Assembly (NCBI GenBank): GCA_012845835.1
Contig: JABAKD010000007.1
Location: 9,178,223-9,242,222 of the forward strand
DNA length: 64,000 nt
Direction: 5' to 3'
Source of the DNA: Undaria pinnatifida
Lineage: Eukaryota > Sar > Phaeophyceae > Laminariales > Alariaceae
Shown: positions 2,585 to 61,728 of the stretch, piece after piece
Numbering within the stretch: position 1 is the stretch's first letter
Layout: the number at the start of each line of letters is the position of its first letter
Made by a program: the position numbers and the translations under genes
Notes under the pieces: generated by a model
Database searches by the model: none
What the model was told of the DNA's origin: nothing
The model's input: only the letters and a program-made list of their open reading frames with translations

Positions 2585-2832
2585 CGGGCCTTTTTTGGTC
2601 ATTTTTTTTTTAGGGCTTGGGACGAGTCGGGGCGTACCAACCCGCGGGTCGGGTCGGGTTGGGCTGGGTAAGGATCAGGGTGATCGACCCGAACCGACCC
2701 GTGAGATTTTGAAAACCTCCTCTTGGATCAGACCCGACCCGACCCGACCGGGGTGAGCGGGTCTGAACCATCTCCTGACCCGACCCCGACTCGAGCCGAG
2801 ACGAGGTCTCATGACCCGCGCAAAAGCCACCC
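2585..2832 (+). repeat. Repeat Q (GACCC-rich), copy 1
   Basis: Dense degenerate GGGTC/GACCC pentamers with inverted-repeat-like ends (GGGC..TTTTT at left, CGCAAAAGCC at right). The same ends flank the Q copy inside element A at 49850-50440. Related pentamer DNA continues at 3150-3240. Confidence 0.6.
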
Positions 2833-3070
2833 GATGATGTTTTTTTTTTTCTTTCTCTCTGACTGACGAAGGCCCTTAACCCCCACACATTCGTCCTAAA
2901 AATATATATTTTCCATTATTATGGTTGTGGAGGTTGTTGGGATGAGGTTTTGTGCACCTAGCTAGCATAACCCTACAGCTAGCTAGGCCATGGGATTTCT
3001 TTCAATCGGGGTTCATCCTTCTCCCCCCCCTCCCCCCGCCCCGCCCCCGCTCAAAATCGGGTTTGACGAT
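2833..3070 (+). mobile_element. Relic of MITE A
   Basis: Degenerate matches to A: GACTGACG..GGCCCTTAACC, TAGCTAGGCCATGGGATTT and CAATCGGG. The termini are not preserved. Confidence 0.4.
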
Positions 3071-3384
3071 CTCGACGGCTAGGGAAGAGCGTGCGCGTCG
3101 ACACAGCAGTAGTAGTAGTGCGAGGTTTCTCGGACGGTTTTCTTCCTTTCACCCGGCGGCCCGACCCGACTCGCCCCCGCGATAATTTTAGGAAACCTTT
3201 TTATCTGACCCGAACCCGGGACGGAGCGTGTGACCCGTGTATATCAACGACACAAAAAACACGAGAAGAAGCGAAGAGCGTGCAGAATCTTCTGGGGCGA
3301 GGTGTGTTATTGCGTTTGCCGTGCTGCTGGGTGCGTGTCGTCGTTTAACACCACGTCCTAACATCACATATAAACATATATGTG

Positions 3385-3637
3385 TACCTGGTATATTATA
3401 AAAAATGAAAATACACTCCATCCAGCTGTGAGATCGAAGATTTCGTCGAAACTCATATTTGCACAAGCTGTGTGTGATACTCCGATCGCGGGTATATTAC
3501 TGCTGCTACTCATACTACTGCTGTGTTTGTCTCCATTAAGGATATAGGTCGGCGACTCCCCTTACAACTACAGTGTAGCTATCAGGGTCAACAGGGTGAT
3601 TTTAGTCAGTCTGTGCACGGAAACTATAAAAAAAACC
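3385..3637 (-). repeat. Repeat F, copy 1
   Basis: Carries the conserved F block (CTGTGAGATCGAAGATTTCG, AAACTCAT, GCAAGCTGTGTGTGATACTC, GGATATAGGTCGGCGACTCC). The element's 3' end lies at the low-coordinate side, next to TATTATAAAAAATGAAAATA. Short frames reading CEIE(D/E)FVETHLCKLCVIL occur in many copies because the DNA is conserved; the frame opens nowhere further. Confidence 0.8.
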
Positions 3638-3767
3638 GATACATACATATGTATATATATATCTCCTAGATGTGGCTGGCCCGGGCAGAGCTCATCAGAC
3701 TGCTTTTTTTAGTCGTCACGCGCGCTTTTACGGGTTTTTTTTGGTTCGACAATTTGTGCCTTCTCCG

Positions 3768-3872
3768 ACGACGCCATTTGTTAAGGTATTAGTGGGGTAT
3801 TAGTCCGTTTGACCACTTGCGAAAAGGTTAACCGATACGTAGCTTGCCCAAACTAAGCCTTATAATAATACA
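3768..3872 (+). repeat. Repeat N, copy 1
   Basis: About 105 bp with CGACGCCATTTGTTAAGG, TATTAGTCCGTTTGACCACT and GCCCAAACTAAGCCTTATAA. Three more copies lie at 7587-7740 (reverse), 7905-7990 and 8225-8345. Confidence 0.75.
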
Positions 3873-4009
3873 GCGAAACATTTGATCCAAAAACAAGTGT
3901 TAATATGACGAATTTCCGACATGATTTGGGGTCAAGGAGCCCCCCCCCCCTCCCCCCCCGTGATGGAAAAAAAAATGTTTTTCAGCACAACAAGACTTGA
4001 GTGCTACCA

Positions 4010-4115
4010 CCGGGTATTAGTTCGGAGTAGCATCACACACAGCTTGCAAAGATGAGTTTCGACAAATTCTTCGATCTCACAGCAGCAGCTGGAGTGTATT
4101 TTTTTTAAATAATAT
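4010..4115 (+). repeat. Repeat F, 3'-end fragment
   Basis: Only the last 100 bp of F is present (CACACACAGCTTGCAAAGAT to GGAGTGTATTTT). It is 5'-truncated like the copies at 14041 and 25258. Confidence 0.75.
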
Positions 4116-5059: not shown

Positions 5060-5633
5060 AAACCGTCACATTTATCCCCTCAAAATAATGTATAGTTTCC
5101 AGGCACATATTGAGCTGCCCCACACGCCCCTCCCCCCCCCCCCCCCCGCCCCAACCCCCCCCCCCGCCCCCAATAATATACTGGTGCCAAAACCGTCAGA
5201 TTTATCCCCTCGAAAGGATTTATAGCTTACATGCACAAATTGCCCCCTCCCCCCCCCCCCCCCCCCCCTCCAAACCCGCTCGCTTTTGATCAAAACCAGG
5301 CCCCCACGTCCTTCAAAACTCCGCCCCACCCCCCTCACCGGTTATTCGACTTACAAGATTCACTTGATAAAAGGATACATTTCCCTTCACAGCTGTCAGA
5401 TTTTGTCCCCCTCAGAAACGGGTTTTATAGTTTCCGCGCACAGACTGACTAAAATCATCCTGTTGACCCTGATAGCTACACTGTAGTTGTAAGGGGAGTC
5501 GCCGACCTATATCCTTAATGAGGACACACAACTCGTAATGCGCGCGATCGGAGTATCACGCACAGCTTGCAAAGATGAGTTTCGACGAAATCTTCGATCT
5601 CACAGCTGGAGTGTATTTTCTTTTTTTATAATA
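5060..5633 (+). repeat. Repeat F, copy 3 (long)
   Basis: Contains two or three tandem internal sub-units (each a TTTATCCCCTC or TTTTGTCCCCCTC block, TATAGTTTCC, then a long C run), followed by the conserved 3' block ending CAGCTGGAGTGTATTTTC. Nearly identical to 8990-9552, so the two copies are young relative to each other. Confidence 0.85.
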
Positions 5634-6205
5634 TATGTAGTTGTAGAAGAAAACTGTTAGCCTATCCTATCCCTTTAACTTTCCTGTTTTCACCCGTTTG
5701 TGGCCACCATATACCTATCTATCTCCGAGGATGAAAGGGGTCGTTTTCTCGCTCCATATCTCTCTATTCTGCCAGACTCTTTCCATATATGTTCACGTTT
5801 CGTCTAATTTCCTCAAATCTCCTCCTCCTGACGCTGACACATCCTGTCCCTCCTTGAGTACATTTCGCATTCTCCTACCATGTGCGTCCTACTCTCTAAC
5901 GTTGGGCCCCGCACGGGCACACATAACATGTGCATTCGCGTTCTCTCGGACGGGGGGGGGGGGGGGGTCGAGAAAAACCAAAACAAGCTGATTAAATCAC
6001 AAAAAATCGTGCGAAAAAAACAACAACTTGTTTTCTTACTAGAAGAAAATCGTCCTGCGATCACACAGGGCGCCGGTTAATTTTCCGTTCTGACCATTTT
6101 TGATGTGAGGGGTCGAAAAAGACTGCCCGGGCGCCCCAGCGGCGTAGTGCGCGTCAAGACTAGATGGTCAAGGCCCAGGCTAAGTAAGGGCTGCAGCCCA
6201 AGGTA
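5634..6205. other. Unassigned stretch with poly-G
   Basis: No gene seen. A 15-G run lies near 5953. Positions 6125-6170 contain GGGCGCCCCAGCGGCGTAGT, faintly like the head of the H-type SINEs, but no B box was found. Confidence 0.35.
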
Positions 6206-8989: not shown

Positions 8990-9552
8990 TTATTTCCAAA
9001 ACCGTCACATTTATCCCCTCAAAATAATGTATAGTTTCCAGGCACATATTGAGCTGCCCCCCCCGCCCCCCCCCCCCCCCCCCGCCCCCAATAATATACT
9101 GGTGCTAAATCCGTCAGATATTTCCCCTCGGAAGGATTTACAGCTTACATGCACAAATTGCCCCCTTCCCCCCCCCCCCCACCCCTCCAAACCCGCTCGC
9201 TTTTGATCAAAACCAGGCCCCCGCGTCCTTCAAAACTCCGCCCCACCCCCCTCACCGGTTATTCGACTTACAAGATTCACTTGATAAAAGGATACATTTC
9301 CCTTCACAGCTGTCAGATTTTGTCCCCCTCAGAAACGGGTTTTTTTATAGTTTCCGCGCACAGACTGACTAAAATCATCCTGTTGACCCTGATAGCTACA
9401 CTGTAGTTGTAAGGGGAGTCGCCGACCTATATCCTTAATGAGGACACACAACTCGTAATGCGCGCGATCGGAGTATCACACACAGCTTGCAAAGATGAGT
9501 TTCGACCAAATCTTCGATCTCACAGCTGGAGTGTATTTTCATTTTTTATAAT
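8990..9552 (+). repeat. Repeat F, copy 4 (long)
   Basis: Almost collinear with 5060-5633, including the C runs. Ends CAGCTGGAGTGTATTTTC, ATTTTTTATAATA. The tandem array U begins within a few bases of its 3' end. Confidence 0.85.
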
Positions 9553-10250
9553 ATAATAGCGTAGATGCCTTTCCGACGTACAAATCGAATGTCCTTCCAT
9601 AAAGCAGCAGCAGTAGTACCTTGTTAGAATATGAAGTCGAACGATCGCACCATACAATGCAATATTGGTATTTTGCGCCAACCATTTGCCCATTTCCTTT
9701 CCCCCACATCTTCTCCTTTTTATCTAATATTTCTCCTTTCCCAATAATATATGATTTAGTTTCGATTAATAATATTGTTATTATTATTTTTGCCCTCTCC
9801 GCCAATATAGCGTAGATGCCTTTCCGATGTCAATCGAATATCCTTCCATAAAGCTGCAGTAACTAGTACCTATTGTGAAGTCGAATGATCGCACCATATA
9901 ATGCAATATTGGTATCTTGCGCCAACCGTTTGCCCATTTCCTTTCCCCCACATTTCTCCTTTTTATCTAATATTTCTCCTTTCCCAATATATGTTTTAGT
10001 TTTGATTAATATTATTATAATTATTTTTGCCCTCTCCGACAATGTAGCGTAGATGCCTTTCGATGTCAATCGAATGTCCTTCCATAAAGCTGCAGTAGAA
10101 CTAGTACCTAATATGAAGTCGAATGATCGCACCATATAATGCAATATTATTGGTATCTTGCGCCAACCATTTCCCATTTCCTTTCCCCCACATCTTCTCC
10201 TTTTTATCGAATATTTTCCCCTTGCCCAATATATGTTTTAGTTTTGATTA

Positions 10251-10512
<262 letters not shown>

Positions 10513-11186
10513 GCCCTCTCCGACAATGTAGCGTAGATACCTTTCCGATGTGTCAATCGAATATCCTTCCATAAAGCACCAGTAACTGGTACCTAATATG
10601 AAGTCGAATGATCGCACCATATAATGCAATACTTCGTATTAGTATCTTGCGCCAACCATTTGCCCATCATTTCCTTTCCCCCACATATTCTCCTTTTTAT
10701 CTAATATTTCTTCTTTCCCAATTGACTACAGTAGACTACGATCGTATATGTTTCTAGATGTTTGACAAGAGTTACTGTAATGTGAGAAAACAACAACAAC
10801 AACAATGTTTTAGTTTTGATGGATATTATTATTATTATTTTGCCCTCTCCGACAATGTAGCGTAGATGTGCCCTTCCGATGTAAATCGAATATCCTTCCA
10901 TAAAGCACCAGTAACTAGACTAAGTACCTAATATGAAGTCGAATGATCGCACCATATAATGCAATACTTCGTATTAGTATCTTGCGCCAACCATTTGCCT
11001 ATCGTTTCCTTTCCCCCACATTTTCTCCTTTTTATCTAATATTTCTCCTTTCCCATTGGACTACAGTATATGTTTTAGTTTTGATTAATATTATTATTAC
11101 TGTTTTTGCCCTCTCCGACAACATAGCGTAGATGCCTCTCCGATGTAAATCGAATATCCTTCCATAAAGCACCAATAACTGGTACC

Positions 11187-11188
11187 TA
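11187..11188. other. TA target duplication (left)
   Basis: TA directly before the transposon end CAGTCAAACC, matching TA at 12791-12792. The uninterrupted array unit reads GGTACCTAATATGAAGTCG at this place. Confidence 0.85.
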
Positions 11189-11213
11189 CAGTCAAACCCC
11201 GCTTAAAGACGCA
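11189..11213 (+). repeat. Left TIR of pogo-like element
   Basis: 25 bp starting CAGTCAAACC and ending AAAGACGCA; exact inverse of 12766-12790. Confidence 0.93.
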
Positions 11214-11394
11214 CTTCTTAAGTCAACTCCCCGCTATAAAGACGAAAAAAAAATCTGAACCAGGGTGCCCCGCAGATGTACAAGTTTAAGGGGGGTGTAT
11301 TGTTTACGCTGCGGGCCCCCCCAAAAAATGGTGCAGCACACCTGTAGACTGCCAGAGAGCGGTCTGCTGCTGCTGCTGCTGCTGCTGCGTGGAC

Positions 11395-12213
11395 ATGGAT
11401 AGATTCCTTTCGTCTGCTGACGGTCCGTCTGCCTCCAACACGAAAGCGTGTGGTGAACCAACATGCAAGATGAAATCTGTCCCGGTCTCAGCGATTCACC
11501 AGTGCCCTTGCGGGCGAGCCATGCATGGGTTTTGTGGTGTGGGCATCGGAGACGAAGGCTACGGGCAGCAGAGAATGTGCACAGACTGCCAGAAGAGAGC
11601 AGGTGGAGATAAGACCGACATCCTTCCCAGGGAGCACCAAAACACGCTCAAGGGCAAGGACACGCGGCTGGACCGAGAGGACAAGGAGGACACGTCCATC
11701 ATCGACGACCTCTGCGGAATGGTGTCCAAGATGTCTATGCCAGCCAGCGTCACGGACTCTAGGTCCATGGCGCGAGTGTTGACGGACAACTTGTTCGTCG
11801 AGGAAGCCCCTGGCCTCACGGAGGCTGAAGTGCGTGAGGCAGTGAAGACGTGGCTTAGTGTAGAGGACGACCCAGAGGTGTTGGAGGAAGAAATCGCAAT
11901 GGAACTGCAGGCTGTAGACGAGCACCTTGCCAACGTGACCCTCAGTGACGATGACGATGTGTCCAGCGAAGAGGAAGGCGACGGTAGGCCAGAGTCGTGC
12001 ATGACAACGTCGCTTACAGAGGCCGACGTCCGCTCTCGCCTCGAGGAGTGCCGCTCCTTTTTCAACGCGAAAGGGAAGAACGGCGAGTACAGCGAAACCC
12101 TGTACCTTCTTTCGAGGACTGTGCATTCGTTCACTCATGAAACTCAAGTCAACCGAAGAGCGAAGCAGGGGGGCGAGGTGCAGGCCACTCTTGGCGACAT
12201 GTGGGGGCGGTAG
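11395..12213 (+). CDS. Transposon ORF: PHD-like zinc finger, acidic tail protein, 272 aa
   Basis: Start chosen at the first ATG (context GTGGACATGG); an upstream in-frame GTG at 11389 is less likely. Residues 19-65 form C-x4-C-x12-C-x-C-x4-H-x2-C-x14-C-x2-C (C19, C24, C37, C39, H44, C47, C62, C65), the ligand order of a C4HC3 PHD-type cross-brace finger. Residues 66-135 are charged. Two related helical motifs, GLTEAEVREAV (140-150) and SLTEADVRSRL (206-216), flank a glutamate/aspartate-rich block (157-197). Residues 263-270, QATLGDMW, resemble a PCNA-binding PIP box. Pogo-family transposases are known to have an acidic C-terminal tail with such a box. No HTH or DDE domain is present. I infer a derivative of a pogo transposase C-terminus, or a second element-encoded protein. 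It is unbroken, while neighbouring repeats are decayed. Confidence 0.8.
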   Translation: MDRFLSSADGPSASNTKACGEPTCKMKSVPVSAIHQCPCGRAMHGFCGVGIGDEGYGQQRMCTDCQKRAGGDKTDILPREHQNTLKGKDTRLDREDKEDTSIIDDLCGMVSKMSMPASVTDSRSMARVLTDNLFVEEAPGLTEAEVREAVKTWLSVEDDPEVLEEEIAMELQAVDEHLANVTLSDDDDVSSEEEGDGRPESCMTTSLTEADVRSRLEECRSFFNAKGKNGEYSETLYLLSRTVHSFTHETQVNRRAKQGGEVQATLGDMWGR

Positions 12214-12765
12214 TTTTTTTTTTTTTGTGGAGGGCATATAGCAATGGGCCTGTTTGTGATGTACGGTTCTCTTGTTGTTGTCTAGCGTTGTTTATCTTCA
12301 CCGTTTTTCTGAGTTGATGTCCATCTGTGTCCTTATCAGGTAGGATTTGACATGTCAAAGTTGGAACAGAGGTGGTGAATGATATATCGGCGAGGTTTCC
12401 AACATGAGGACGAGAAGATAATAAGAAAAACACAGTCGACACCAACCGAGAGAGAGAGTTCACTGCAGTCATAATAACCTTCATCCTGCAACATTGAACC
12501 CACTTCTCGGAGCATTTTATTTCGGGCGGTGGGGTGCGGCAACTACTGTATAAACTTGGTTTTTAAGTACATTCCACTTTCAACCACGGCAACGTTGTGA
12601 CGGTCAGATTTGTGGATTCTCGTTTCGTTATAGTATACCTGCTGCAACGGCGCGTCTTTTGATGTATGTTATGCCTCCATCGGCCCCGGGGATGGTGCGT
12701 TATCGTCCCCGGAATCTTAAAGACGATTCCCCGCGTTAAAGACGCCTTGAAAAAAAGTACCGATA
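12214..12765 (+). other. Non-coding 3' part of pogo-like element
   Basis: Begins with a T run after the stop codon. No long frame continues. Near 12715-12760 lie subterminal repeats (CTTAAAGACGATTCCCCGCG, TTAAAGACGCC) that mimic the TIR. Confidence 0.7.
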
Positions 12766-12790
12766 TGCGTCTTTAAGCGGGGTTTGACTG
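12766..12790 (-). repeat. Right TIR of pogo-like element
   Basis: Begins TGCGTCTTTAAGCGGGG and ends TTTGACTG; inverse of 11189-11213. Followed by TA at 12791-12792. Confidence 0.93.
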
Positions 12791-12970
12791 TACTATGAAG
12801 TCGAATGATCGCACCATAATGCAGTAGCGAGTGGTGTCTTCCGCCAACCATTTGCCCATTTCCTTTCCCCACATCTGTCTCCTTTTATCTACGACGCTAC
12901 TACTGTATTTCCTTTCCCTATATATATTTAGTATGAGAACAACGACAACAATGCTCAACACCATGAAATT
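12791..12970 (+). repeat. Array U, sixth unit resumed
   Basis: CTATGAAGTCGAATGATCGC continues the unit interrupted at 11188. It decays after about 180 bp. Confidence 0.85.
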
Positions 12971-13264: not shown

Positions 13265-14035
13265 GATTAAATATTATAAAGTTGAAAATGTACACTCCAG
13301 CTAGCTGTGAGATCGAGGATTTCGTCGAAACTCATCTTTACAAGCTGTGTGTGATACTCCGATCGCGCGTATTACGGGTTGTGTGTCCTCATTTAGGATA
13401 TAGGTGGGCGCCTCCCCTTGCAACTACAGTGTAGCTATCGGGGTCAACAGGGTGATGTTAGTCAGTCTGTGGCGCGGAAACTATGAAAACCCGTTTTTGA
13501 GGGGAACAGAATCTGACTGCGACTGTGGAAGGGAATGCATCAGTTTATCAAGTGAATCCTGTAAGTCGAATAACCGGTGAGGGGAGGGAGAAATTTTTAC
13601 GGACGTGGGGGCCTGGGTTTGATCAAGAGGGAGCGGGGGGGGCGGGGAGCGGGGGGGGCAGCTCAATCTGTGCGTAGAAACTATAAAACCTACCCTGTAA
13701 GTCGTACAACCAGTCGAGAGGGCGGGGCATTGGAGGGGGTGGGGGTGGGGGTGAGGGGGGAAGGGGGGGGGGGGGGGGGGGGCAGAAAGGGTTTTTATAC
13801 AAACATCTTCAGGTCGCATAGATGTAGGGGTTTGCTATACGCGTGGTACTAGGTCTAGGCGATGGTGCAGGTGGTGGGGAAGGAGGGGGCGTTGGGAGGG
13901 GGACTGAATGAAAGCTACGTCGTGGATGGCTAGAAAGTAAATGACGTTCTATCCATTGCGTAGAAGTGTTTATTACTCTGGCCGATTTCGATTGTAGGTA
14001 GTGCGTTTGAACAAAGGGGGGAGGAATATATATAT
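13265..14035 (-). repeat. Repeat F, copy 5 (long)
   Basis: Reverse copy. The 3' block is at 13270-13460, then sub-units with G runs, then the distal part (TTTGCTATACGCGTGGTACTA, GTGTTTATTACTCTGGCCGA) that is otherwise seen only in the longest copy at 60350-61447. Confidence 0.8.
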
Positions 14036-14040
14036 ATATA

Positions 14041-37439: not shown

Positions 37440-37692
37440 AAATGCTGTCAGATTTTGTCCCCCTCAGAAACGGGTTTCATAGTTTCCGCGCACAGACTGA
37501 CTACAATCATCCTGTTGACCCTGATAGCTACACTGTAGTTGTAAGGGGAGTCGCCGACCTATATCCTTAATGAGGACACACAACTCGTAATGCGCGCGAT
37601 CGGAGTATCACACACAGCTTGCAAAGATGAGTTTCGACGAAATCTTCGATCTCACAGCTAGAGTGTATTTTCATTTTTTATAATAAAATGTA
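37440..37692 (+). repeat. Repeat F, copy 9
   Basis: 5'-truncated at CTGTCAGATTTTGTCCCCCT; ends CTAGAGTGTATTTTCATTTT, ATAATA. Confidence 0.85.
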
Positions 37693-37830: not shown

Positions 37831-37904
37831 GTTATAGGGTTCAATCTGCGCTTGCTTCGTATCGTGCATCGCCCCCGTACATGCATACATGCGAAGCATT
37901 ATAT

Positions 37905-38222
37905 TACAAAAATAAAAATACACTCCAGCTGTGAGATCGAAAATTTTATTGAAACTCATCTTTGCAAGCTGTGTATGATACACCGATCGCGCGTATTACT
38001 GTGTGTGTCCTAATTAAGGATATAGGTGGGCGACTCCCCTTGGAACTACAGCAGTGTAGCTTGCACCAGGGCCAACAGGGTGATGCTAGTCAGTCTGTGC
38101 ACGGAAACTATAAAAACCCATTTTTGAGGGGGACGAAAATCTGACAGCTGTGGAAAGAAATGCATCAGTTAATCAAGTGTATGCTGTAAGTCGTACAACC
38201 AGTGAGAAGAGGGCGGAGTGTT
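37905..38222 (-). repeat. Repeat F, copy 10
   Basis: Reverse F copy. With 37440-37692 it forms an inverted repeat of about 250 bp arms around a 212-bp spacer. Confidence 0.8.
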
Positions 38223-58800: not shown

Positions 58801-61728
58801 TGGTGGTGGTGGTGGTGGTGGTAGTGGTGGTGGTGGTGGTGGTGGTGGTAGTGGTGATCGCAGTTGTGGTGGTACGTTGGTGTTGGCGGTGGTGGCAATG
58901 GCGTGGTGGTGTTGGAGGCGGAGGCGGAGGTGGTGGCTGTGTTAGTGATGGTGTTGGCTGGTGGTGATGACTTCGGTATTGGTGGTTGTGGTTGTGCTGG
59001 TGGTGGTTCTGTTTGGTATTGGTTGCGTTGTTGGCGGCCCTGGCTGTGTTGGTGTTTGTGTTGATGGTTTTGCTGGTGATGTGGCGTGGTGGGTAGTGAT
59101 GCTGTAGGTGGGTGGCGGCGGGGGTGGTGGCGGCATCGTTGCAGTGTGGTGGTGGTTGGGTTGGGGGTGGTGGTTGTGGCGGTCGACGTGGTGGTTGTGG
59201 TTGTGGTGTTGCCGTTGGTGTGGGTCGTGGTGGTGAAGATGGGGGTGGTGGCGGTGTTAGTGTTGGTATAGGTGGCGTTGGTGCTGATCGTGTTGTTGGC
59301 GGTGGTGGTGGTGGTTGTTGTGGTGGTTGTTGTGGTTTTGGTTGTGGTTGTGGTGGTTGTGGTCGTGTGGTGGTGGTTGTGGTGTCGTTGGTGTTAGTGT
59401 TGGTGTTGTTGATATTGATGTTGGTTGCGTTGGTGGGGTCGGTGGTATTGGTGGTTGTGGCGGCCGACGTGGTGGTTGTGGTTGTGGTGTTGCCGTTGGC
59501 GTGGGTCGTGGTGGTGGAGATGGTGGTGGTGGCGGTGATAGTGTTGTTATAGGTGGTGTTGGTGCTGATGGTGTTGTTGGCGGTGGTGGTGGTGGTGGTG
59601 GTGGTGGTGGTCGTGTGGTGGTTGTGGTGTCGTTGATGCTAGTGTTGGTATTGTTGATATTGATGTTGGTTGCGTTGGTGGGGTTGGTGGTATTGATGTA
59701 TTGGTGGTGGTGGTGGGTGGTGGTTGGGGTGGTGGTTGCAATTGCGTTGGTTGTGGTTGTGGCGGCGGCAGTGTAATATTGGTGCAGTGGTGGTTGTTAG
59801 GGTTGTCGTGGTGGTGTTGTGGTGGTTGCGTTCTGCTTGTGGTGGTGATAGTTGTGGTGGGGGTGTTGGTCGACGCAAAGCTGACGCCAACCACGTAGGC
59901 ACGTCCCGAATAGCAAAAAAAAACGGTGCGGCAAGCGAGGAAAAAACAACGAATGAACGAACAAGCAGACACAGTACCTTTGCGGGGAGTGGCCGACGCA
60001 GCAAGCTCTCATTGCCGAGCACACGGTGTAGACGTTCGGAGATATCCCTCCCGAGAGCATCGCCCTGAGAATGGCCAAGGCATCCTCCCACCGCCCCTGA
60101 TACACCCAAAGGTCAACAGCAAGAAGATAGATGAGAAACAAGAAACAACATCACGAAAAACAGCCTTGAAAGTTGATCCGCATGAGTTTGTTGCTGTCGT
60201 TTTTTTGTTGTTTTGACTTTATCATTGTGGTTGGTGTCGATATTGATAGAGTTTAACGCCTATACAGCTGGAAACCCGTTTTTCGGTGAAATTTACTTGG
60301 AATTAACTTAGGGAGGATTTCGGGGCTCTAAAGCTATGAATTGCTTAAATAATCCATCCGATTCATTTCCGCCCCCCCCCCCCCCCCCCCCCCCCTCCCC
60401 CCTTTTTTTTTCCCCGGTCCCTTTTGTTCGAACGCCCCATCCAAAATCGAAATCGGCCAGAGTAATAAACACTTCTACGCAATTGATATCACGTCATTAT
60501 CTTTCTAGCCATCCATGACGTAGCTTTAATTTATCTCCCCCCTTCCCCCAACGCCCCCTCCTTCCCCACCACCCGCACGATCGCCTAGACCTAGCACCAC
60601 GCGTATAGCAAGAGCCTACATATATGCGACCTAAACCTGTTAATAATCCTCCCCCCCCACACCCTTTTCCCTGCTCCCTCTTGCTCAAACGCCCCACCTA
60701 ACATCGAACTCTGCCAAAGTAATAAACACTTCCACGCAGTTGATATCACCTCATTATCTTTCTAGAGCCATCCATGCCGCTGCTCCAATTCAACCCCCCC
60801 CCCCCGCCCCCCCCTCCCCAACGCCTCCTCCTTATCCATCACCCGAACCATTATCTACACCTAGCACCACGCGTATAGCAAACCCCTACATCTATGTGAC
60901 CTAAAGCTGTTAAAAACCCTTTTGCCCCCCCCCCCCCCCCCCCCCACCCCCTCGAACACTCCGCCCTCTCTTCACTGGTTGTACGACATACAGGATATAC
61001 ATGAAAAACTGGTGCATTCCTGCCAAAACCGATAGATTTATCTCCTTAAGGATTTATAGTTTCCACGCACAGATTGAAGTTACCCGCCCCCCCCCCGCCC
61101 CGCTGCCTCGTGGTCAAACTCAGCCCCCCACGCCCTTAAAAACTCCACCCTCCCCTCACCGGTTATACGACTTACAGGATACACTTGATAAACTGATGCA
61201 TTTCCTTCCACAGCTGTCAGATTTTGTCCCCCTCAAAAATGTGATTTATAGTTTCCGCACACAGACTGACTAACATCACCCTGTTGATAGCTGCACTATA
61301 GTTCCAAGGGGAGTCACCGACGTATATCCTTAATGAGGACACACAGCCCGTAATACGCGCGGTCGGAGGATCACACACAGCTTGCAAAGATGAGTTTCGG
61401 CAAAATCTTCGATCTCACAGCTGGAGTGTATTTTTTCCTTTATAACACTGAAGCAAAAATCGGGCACCTCAGGCAATGAAAACCATAGTTTGCACTATCG
61501 ACTGTTTTGTTGAAGCTGGTTCAGTTGGTATACGAGGTGTACTCCGCATACACACGTACACTATATACTGGGCGACTTCAGCGCATTCAAATAGCCGAAG
61601 TCACCGCCTTAGGCCTTACCGCTTTTTCGCATGACCTGATGACCTGGTTGCAAGATACCACCGAGGGCGACACTCGGTCAAGCCGCATCAGGGTCAGAAG
61701 TTTCTTCGAAGTTTCCGCATCGCCGTGC
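55780..61728 (-). CDS. PPR-SMR protein gene (partial, multi-exon)
   Basis: Five exons on the minus strand at 61620-61728, 59978-60096, 58590-58679, 57048-57308 and 56028-56139 join in one frame with compatible phases. They encode at least three pentatricopeptide repeats followed by an SMR domain (MDLHGHS near its start, ITGQGRGS further on). PPR-SMR proteins are organelle-targeted RNA/DNA-binding factors in plants and algae (for example GUN1, SVR7, pTAC2). I infer plastid or mitochondrial RNA metabolism. All junctions use GT..AG. Introns are 0.9-1.5 kb and filled by repeats (F, B, GTG and AACC tracts, G, SINE H). The N-terminus with any transit peptide and the last SMR residues were not found, so both ends are partial. 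A duplicated SMR exon lies at 55780-55870. Confidence 0.88.
56028..56139 (-). CDS. PPR-SMR exon: SMR core
   Basis: 112 bp; acceptor TTTGTGTCAG, donor ATC|GTGAGT. Encodes (R)FALEEIWRHSQKDGASLG then DLTIITGQGRGSLHAFQPI. TGQGRGS is the conserved glycine-rich SMR motif. Phase 2 in, phase 0 out. Confidence 0.9.
56219..56300 (+). repeat. Repeat P, copy 3 (in intron)
   Basis: TTAACCCCTTTAGCACTGCA, GGGGCAAACCTAACTCGA and TCTAGTGCGGG; starts with a B-like TTAACCCCTTTA. Confidence 0.5.
56411..56702 (-). mobile_element. SINE H, copy 4 (in PPR-SMR intron)
   Basis: Reverse copy: tail TTTCCAGCTTCTGGACAAGC, B-box region reading as GTGAGTTCGAGCCCC, head at GCCACCGGGGCGACCGG. The T run at 56391-56408 abuts the tail. 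Confidence 0.92.
57048..57308 (-). CDS. PPR-SMR exon: last PPR helix, linker, SMR start
   Basis: 261 bp; acceptor TTCGCGTACAG, donor CAG|GTGGGT. Starts (K)DGRFDLADFFYREAYREG, completing a PPR. Then follow a Gly/Asp/Ala-rich linker of about 45 residues and VMDLHGHSLPLAHAAV, the LDxHG signature of SMR. Phase 2 in, phase 2 out. Confidence 0.92.
57490..57503. repeat. Poly-G run in intron
   Basis: About 13 G in a row, preceding repeat G copy 5. Confidence 0.85.
57560..57870 (+). repeat. Repeat G, copy 5 (in intron)
   Basis: CTGCCGGGACGGAGCACGTC, CCGACTAGGCAGGCATTGCG and GTGGACGATAGCTTCAAAG. Antisense to the host gene. Confidence 0.75.
58070..58570. repeat. AACCAAA-type degenerate tract, 0.5 kb (intronic)
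   Basis: AACCAAACCAAAACCAAACC variants. In the gene's sense this is GGTTT/TTGG-rich with no A/C. Unusual for a polypyrimidine region because G and T alternate. Confidence 0.92.
58590..58679 (-). CDS. PPR-SMR exon: PPR
   Basis: 90 bp; acceptor GTTGTTGCACAG, donor CAA|GTGAGT. Encodes (R)AIDLLAELRQFMGNALTLP then VYNTLVCSFH, the second helix of one PPR and the first of the next. Phase 2 in, phase 2 out. Confidence 0.92.
58757..59870 (+). repeat. GTG/GTT tract, 1.1 kb (intronic)
   Basis: (GTG)n at 58760-58850 passing into GGTGGTGTTGTGG-like degenerate repeats with duplicated blocks (GGCGGTCGACGTGGTGGTTG near 59180 and its relative near 59460). Val/Gly frames on plus and Pro/Thr/His frames on minus are artefacts. 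Confidence 0.93.
59978..60096 (-). CDS. PPR-SMR exon: PPR
   Basis: 119 bp; acceptor TGGGTGTATCAG, donor AAAG|GTACTG. Encodes GRWEDALAILRAMLSGGISP then NVYTVCSAMRACCVGHSPQ. A classic PPR spacing of helix, turn, ISPN and next helix. Phase 0 in, phase 2 out. Confidence 0.94.
60253..60348 (+). mobile_element. Mini-MITE B (in intron)
   Basis: TTAACGCCTATACAGCTGGA to GCTATGAATTGCTTAA; TTAA at both ends. Confidence 0.8.
60350..61447 (+). repeat. Repeat F, longest copy, about 1.1 kb (in intron)
   Basis: A distal module in two tandem units of about 245 bp (GCCAGAGTAATAAACACTTC... and GCCAAAGTAATAAACACTTC..., each with CTAGCACCACGCGTATAGCA). Two medial sub-units with C runs follow, then the conserved 3' block ending CAGCTGGAGTGTATTTTTTC. 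Antisense to the PPR-SMR gene. No reverse-transcriptase frame is visible. Confidence 0.85.
61620..61728 (-). CDS. PPR-SMR exon: PPR (most upstream found)
   Basis: 109 bp; acceptor TATCCTTCCCTCAG, donor GCG|GTAAGG. Encodes HGDAETSKKLLTLMRLDRVS then PSVVSCNQVIRSCEKA. Phase 2 in, so at least one more exon lies upstream, phase 0 out. I could not find it up to 64000. Confidence 0.9.

Follow-up and report, generated by a model that had tools for sequence, protein, structure and literature searches.

An internally deleted, non-autonomous pogo-superfamily transposon of Undaria pinnatifida with an open reading frame joining two ends of a predicted transposase

Introduction

KP and other deleted P elements of Drosophila carry one internal deletion, keep both ends and retain a short open fragment of the transposase gene, and KP spread in trans. 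The KP polypeptide, as described in the available part of PMC4938643, retains the transposase start, binds to P elements and acts as a repressor.

The pogo superfamily of IS630-Tc1-mariner comprises the families Tigger, pogoR, Lemi, Passer, Mover and Fot/Fot-like. The available part of PMC7386202, from which this list is taken, gives a TA duplication and terminal inverted repeats (TIRs) of ≤40 bp for most families, element sizes of 1.2-5.2 kb, transposases of 300-977 aa and a DD29-56D spacing; it also mentions zinc fingers at the N-terminal end of POGZ, a domesticated gene. A PIP box is known in the pogo transposase (PMC4103810, available part). In the brown alga Ectocarpus, the TcMar-2_Ec32 transposase has an N-terminal EsV-1-7 domain, and this domain has proliferated in brown algae (PMC12477816, available part).

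The element described here lies in a 64,000-nucleotide stretch of Undaria pinnatifida DNA (GCA_012845835.1, contig JABAKD010000007.1, positions 9,178,223 to 9,242,222, forward strand), hereafter the window, to which all positions refer unless otherwise indicated. A preliminary description had read it as a recently active pogo-like transposon with a readable empty site and a non-transposase open reading frame (ORF).

Results

The element and its insertion site

The element and its borders are as follows.

11189..12790, + strand: non-autonomous pogo-superfamily element, 1,602 bp, deletion type 427/2863 relative to a 4,042-bp copy
11187..11188, no strand: left TA target-site duplication
12791..12792, no strand: right TA target-site duplication
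11189..11213, + strand: left TIR, 25 bp, starts CAGTCAAACCCCGCTTAAAGACGCA
12766..12790, - strand: right TIR, 25 bp
11229..11244, + strand: subterminal repeat of the TIR core CCCCGCTATAAAGACG, putative transposase-binding site
12707..12725, + strand: subterminal repeat with TTAAAGACG
12729..12744, + strand: subterminal repeat CCCCGCGTTAAAGACG

The two TIRs were identical at 25/25 positions, or 27 when the TA was counted, and no TIR-pair match was obtained in 100 shuffles of the window. The TIR core TTAAAGACG recurred just internal to both ends, one such copy having a mismatch. An Rfam search of the window gave no matches.

The element interrupted a single unit of array U, an AT-rich array of tandem repeats, five other units of which were located at approximately 9.56-11.1 kb. 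In silico removal of the element together with one TA gave GGTACCTACTATGAAG. Starting at GTACC and running through the insertion point, the emptied site aligned without gaps to four of the five sister units, the remaining one (unit 1) exhibiting a 6-bp insertion at that position. Within GTACCTAxTATGAAG, the single difference from units 3-5 was the base after the TA (C at the emptied site, A in the units), and unit 2 differed by two bases. When placed on the sister units by BLAST, the element flanks overlapped by exactly 2 bp, the TA, at 10109-10110 and 10594-10595. Both the perfect TIRs bordered by TA and the readable empty site of the preliminary description were thus borne out.

Two inverted copies (~86% identical) of a ~390-bp repeat, at 9171-9554 and 13271-13658, enclosed array U and the pogo insertion; this repeat was also observed elsewhere in the window, e.g., at 5060-5635, 37444-37689, 37898-38213 and 61049-61445. 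Array U may be the interior of an older foldback-like element. Between two of the array U units lay ~266 bp of ATT triplet repeats (10247-10512).

The 272-aa open reading frame taken alone

One long ORF was considered on the plus strand, with the following parts.

11395..12213, + strand: 272-aa ORF, in-frame fusion of parts of transposase exons 1 and 4
11449..11589, + strand: C4HC3 PHD-like zinc finger, residues 19-65 (Pfam Znf_SCAND3, E 5.9e-6)
11785..11994, + strand: acidic region, about residues 131-200
12181..12204, + strand: PIP-like C-terminal motif QATLGDMW

The finger ligands C19, C24, C37, C39, H44, C47, C62 and C65 followed the C4HC3 pattern, using the general PHD ligand spacing widened to allow C-x4-C and C-x-C, and this pattern was obtained in none of 20,000 shuffles of the ORF protein. 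The Znf_SCAND3 score of the finger was 26.6 bits, compared with a cut-off of 27, in the Pfam search and 30.0 bits, above the cut-off, in the genome scan; a PHD model was not among the two Pfam families of the ORF search. A strict PIP box reads Qxx[ILM]xx[FY][FY], and that of pogo itself sits C-terminally. The strict motif was not found in the 272-aa ORF, which exhibited only the degenerate QATLGDMW, without paired aromatics; a degenerate motif of this kind appeared in the last 14 residues in 5 out of 20,000 shuffles. The finger, the acidic region and the PIP-box-like end that had been noted earlier were therefore all recovered, the last in degenerate form. Taken alone, the ORF gave no Pfam match to an HTH or DDE domain.

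When the element was resampled with a Markov model, a stop-free stretch of at least 307 codons, like that of the ORF, occurred in 4 out of 2,000 cases, and one of at least 267 codons in 11 out of 2,000, or in 29 out of 2,000 when the resampling followed ORF-region composition. ORF length by itself is fairly weak evidence of a gene; the reality of the ORF is settled by its homology to transposase exons (see below), not by its length. A minus-strand ORF (11491-12291), for which Pfam gave no match at E ≤0.1, was rejected as a gene.

Searches of other collections gave nothing useful for the element or the ORF in phages (tblastn), plasmids (blastn) or NCBIfam, nor for relatives of the ORF in PDB (best E 0.32). 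Protein-pattern scans for ORF relatives gave 4 pattern stretches in viral_contigs and 19 in genome_contigs, none of which was confirmed. A 22-mer of the TIR had no match in genome_contigs and a 22-mer of array U none in viral_contigs. Two viral_contigs records matching a TIR 20-mer were discarded as chance matches, as their ORFs read as phage contigs; two stretches from a degenerate DDE motif scan of viral_contigs also read as phage, and two further such scans gave no stretches. In the literature, the titles among the matches listed for the TIR start were unrelated to transposons, and none of the titles listed for pogo-type terms in brown algae concerned this element.

A full-length element with the same ends

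The genome searched was the window's own assembly (G000; 511 Mb, 68 contigs). A search with the DDE exon gave eight places, two near 100% identity (on contigs C57 and C30) and six at 82-84% DNA identity. The place on C57 (locus L013, 4362-8403, minus strand) belonged to an element of 4,042 bp with the same TIRs (25/25) and TA on both sides, whereas that on C30 was without a 3' end. L013 was the only one of 66 two-TIR elements examined (see below) to contain both TIRs and the DDE exon. No other full-length copy was found, and L013 is situated near a contig end, at a distance of no more than ~1.3 kb.

On the basis of reading frames and splice signals, not RNA, the gene of the full-length element was modelled with four exons (element positions 205-482, 940-1468, 1738-2537 and 2751-3462) and three introns, all GT..AG, encoding a predicted protein of 773 aa. 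In order, this protein was characterized by a PHD-like finger (exon 1), an HTH, a DDE_1 domain with DD30D, and an acidic tail ending QATLGDMWGR (exon 4). The spliced protein matched DDE_1 (PF03184) over the whole profile (E 1.1e-32) and HTH_Tnp_Tc5 (PF03221) at residues 251-314 (E 2.9e-15), while Znf_SCAND3 remained under the cut-off (E 0.0011, 19.4 bits). The HTH_Tnp_Tc5 score increased from 45.4 bits with exon 3 alone to 56.4 bits after splicing, and that intron is therefore supported. The catalytic residues were D352, D469 and D500, with 30 residues between the last two. Residue 65 of the finger was a serine in L013 and a cysteine in the 24 other copies holding the codon. The tail as a whole may resemble Tigger-type tails.

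By its TA, TIRs, HTH and DDE spacing, as read from the predicted protein, the 4,042-bp element is assigned to pogo at the superfamily level; the DNA-binding HTH of this superfamily lies ahead of the DDE domain and is of the CENP-B_N, HTH_Tnp_Tc5 or psq kind. A longer relative with a DDE transposase and the same C-terminal protein, which the preliminary description had proposed to look for, was thus found, and the pogo-like character of the window element was upheld.

Derivation of the window copy

Aligned with the full-length element, the window ORF was resolved into two parts.

11395..11617, + strand: exon 1-derived part of the ORF, positions 205-427 of the 4,042-bp element
11615..11617, no strand: deletion junction, 3-bp microhomology CCG common to both breakpoints
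11615..12213, + strand: exon 4-derived part of the ORF (post-DDE acidic tail, from DILPRE on)

Positions 1-429 of the window copy were 98.4% identical to 1-427 of the full-length element, and positions 423-1602 were 99.6% identical to 2863-4042. A stretch of ~2.44 kb running from exon 1 to exon 4 was missing and the join was in frame, such that the exon 1 finger was fused to the exon 4 acidic tail without the first part of exon 4; the HTH lay in the deleted section. With no HTH and DDE encoded, the window copy does not qualify as an autonomous pogo element; its two near-identical ends and missing middle are those of an internally deleted, non-autonomous derivative. The apparent 272-aa orphan protein is, according to this alignment of predicted coding parts, two ends of the transposase joined in frame and not cargo. 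The earlier label of a non-transposase ORF holds insofar as the ORF itself contains no HTH or DDE, but not as to its origin, which lies in exons 1 and 4 of the element's own transposase.

Recent movement and the genomic family

A second copy of the window type was found at C18:6147390-6148996, identical over 1,602/1,602 bp. Its flanks were unlike those of the window copy, save for scattered short common repeats, and its own site differed. By the rule of three (0/1,602 differences), the divergence of the two copies would be below about 0.2%. Identical copies at two unrelated TA sites argue that the deleted form itself moved, very recently; as this form is without DDE, we infer that it moved in trans. 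Recent activity had previously been proposed from TIR identity and the open ORF. The proposal stands by virtue of the second copy, but the evidence originally named is weak: the open ORF bounds divergence only at about 10%, and TIR identity, which bounds it only at about 11%, was rejected as a clock.

The TA+TIR 27-mer, with ≤2 mismatches, occurred 157 times in the genome (79 forward, 78 reverse), compared with none for the reversed-pattern control, which would correspond to roughly 78 elements of the family. From the places of the first genome search and the first 100 of the 157 TA+TIR places, we drew 66 two-TIR elements, at 66 distinct sites; four loci without one end (L021, L029, L056 and L083) and L030, the same copy as L079, were left outside this set. 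TA was present on both sides in 65 of the 66, and the TIR pair was identical in 57.

Under our breakpoint grouping, the 66 elements represented 19 deletion types and one full-length element. The commonest types were 414/3517 (n = 17, near variants counted), 217/3280 (n = 11) and 127/2964 (n = 9, one copy with a large insertion); the window type accounted for two copies. Mean pairwise substitution, measured without the insertion-bearing copies L039 and L079, ranged from 0 to 0.7% in 10 of the 11 multi-copy groups and was 1.75% in the other, a two-copy group.

Around the TA, the 66 insertion sites exhibited T at -6 in 35 cases, A at +6 in 39 and both in 21, compared with 27%, 26% and 7.5%, respectively, at 14,039 TA sites in the fetched loci. 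A weak palindromic target preference was observed about the TA, with T at -6, A at +6, G at -1 and C at +1. At one locus (L038, G000:C27:2371980-2374243), two copies of one deletion type were found in opposite orientation, 7 bp apart and each flanked by TA, as if one copy had jumped beside the other. At another (L079, G000:C34:13621680-13628127), a 127/2964-type copy that retained its TIRs and flanking TA was enlarged internally by ~5 kb of other DNA, which is probably a nested insertion.

Related families

In all six relatives at 82-84% DNA identity, finger-exon and tail-exon matches flanked the DDE exon; the finger match covered only part of the exon in L091 and was divided between two frames in L088. 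Most of the six had stops, frameshifts or missing ends. The tail ended in the form QATLRDxW in three of them, which suggests constraint on the PIP-like end; PCNA binding by this end is a conjecture. Genome-wide, the DDE exon protein gave 82 matching rows, many of these at 35-45% identity in long open frames, and several other pogo-type families seem to be present.

One related family had its own in-frame finger-tail fusion ORF, of 142 aa from its ATG (L093 266-700; G000:C61:4042549-4043149). Its TIR, as judged from the left end alone, starts CAGTCATCCCCGC. With a 601-bp query from L093, 19 of the 40 scored places (406 candidates) matched over the whole length with 99-100% identity, the match at one of these places beginning at base 4. 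No stop was present in the corresponding 19 tail rows, which had open frames of 155-388 aa, and two of these rows ceased to match at residue 212 of 225.

Discussion

The window element is very probably a pogo-superfamily transposon copy that is internally deleted and non-autonomous, was shortened by interrupted repair and mobilised in trans, and carries its ORF as a by-product. The internal deletion would have arisen when repair of the gap left by an excision was interrupted. An autonomous copy may supply transposase that binds the repeated CCCCGC..TTAAAGACG sites at both ends, cuts the short copy out and inserts it at a TA, the target here being an array U unit. The fused ORF would most likely be a by-product without selected function.

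In several respects the full-length element is typical of the superfamily: it has a TA duplication, a 25-bp TIR (type 1, ≤40 bp), HTH_Tnp_Tc5 and DDE_1 domains and DD30D, and its 4.0 kb and 773 aa fall inside the size ranges given in the available part of PMC7386202. It differs by the N-terminal PHD-like finger of its predicted transposase; no such finger is mentioned for transposases in that part of the source. The window copy differs further by the loss of HTH and DDE. As for the known PIP box of pogo, a PIP-like motif is likewise found here in a pogo-type transposase, but QATLGDMW is without the two aromatics of the strict motif.

The window copy resembles KP and other deleted P elements in its single internal deletion, its two preserved ends and its short open transposase fragment, and KP itself is a precedent for a repressor made from a deleted element (PMC4938643, available part). 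We nevertheless consider it unlikely that the finger-tail fusion protein is produced and serves as a regulator in the manner of KP, i.e., as a truncated transposase that damps or redirects the full one. The fusion is open and in frame, with a complete C4HC3 finger and most of exon 4, and it retains possible partner-binding parts in the finger, the acidic tail and the PIP-like end; the related L093 family has a finger-tail fusion of its own, in 19 copies with uninterrupted tails. However, the KP polypeptide keeps the transposase start and binds P elements, whereas the HTH is gone from the window fusion, and in copies this young open frames are to be expected in any case, in the L093 family likewise, where two of the tails also end their match early. 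A whole finger and tail in one frame is confined, among the 66 elements, to the two copies of the window type, compared with 17 and 11 copies of the commonest types, and the first of these, 414/3517, reads as a finger-only ORF of ~75 aa. Finally, among the 11 testable deletion types, i.e., those with the start codon kept and a breakpoint inside exon 4, five had in-frame junctions (P = 0.29 versus one third by chance). Selection for the fused ORF was rejected, as there was no sign of it in these junctions.

A broader version, in which brown-algal pogo elements repeatedly shed HTH and DDE and keep an in-frame finger-tail miniprotein as a shared regulatory product, is likewise unlikely. If true, the miniprotein (272 aa in 2 copies; 142 aa in 19 copies) would anchor the machinery of transposition on chromatin or on replication clamps or, alternatively, would poison the full transposase.

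A host gene captured by a pogo element, or a cargo gene within one, is a very improbable origin for the ORF. The ORF alone has no HTH or DDE match, and Ectocarpus has DNA transposon families carrying only non-transposase genes (PMC12477816, available part); against this, both halves of the ORF correspond to parts of exons of the transposase gene that belongs to the element itself, near-identical to the full-length copy, and finger and tail matches surround the DDE exon in all six relatives. That the element is autonomous, with the 272-aa ORF itself as an active transposase of a new type without DDE, can be practically dismissed: the deleted copy clearly moved, as its two identical copies indicate, but the types unable to make the 272-aa protein outnumber the window type (127/2964 without the start codon, 9 copies; 414/3517 without the coding part of the tail, 17 copies), and mobilisation in trans suffices, since a DDE-bearing element with the same TIRs exists.

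Internally deleted and mobilised by a transposase made elsewhere, as we read it, the window element may also be compared with the Tc1/mariner-like families of Ectocarpus. These are alike by their description in the available part of PMC12477816, with mostly non-autonomous copies and an extra N-terminal Cys-rich domain. The domain added here differs from that of TcMar-2_Ec32 in being a C4HC3 finger nearest to Pfam Znf_SCAND3, not EsV-1-7. As a separate observation, EsV-1-7 gave 2,164 first-look candidates in the window's genome, of which 150 were scored, all above the cut-off, and none in 14 control genomes, which points to a brown-algal lineage.

The element itself is of an ordinary kind, and its reading as a recently mobilised, non-autonomous deletion copy of the pogo superfamily is well supported. 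The remaining interest lies in the finger-bearing transposase and in the finger-tail fusions of two families. The explanation of an orphan protein as two transposase ends is a warning for the annotation of such ORFs, and the finger and PIP-like tail make the replication-clamp link of pogo transposition testable outside animals. Overall, the family provides the anatomy of a very young pogo family in a brown alga, with one full-length copy and dozens of deletion copies that have near-identical ends and mapped junctions.
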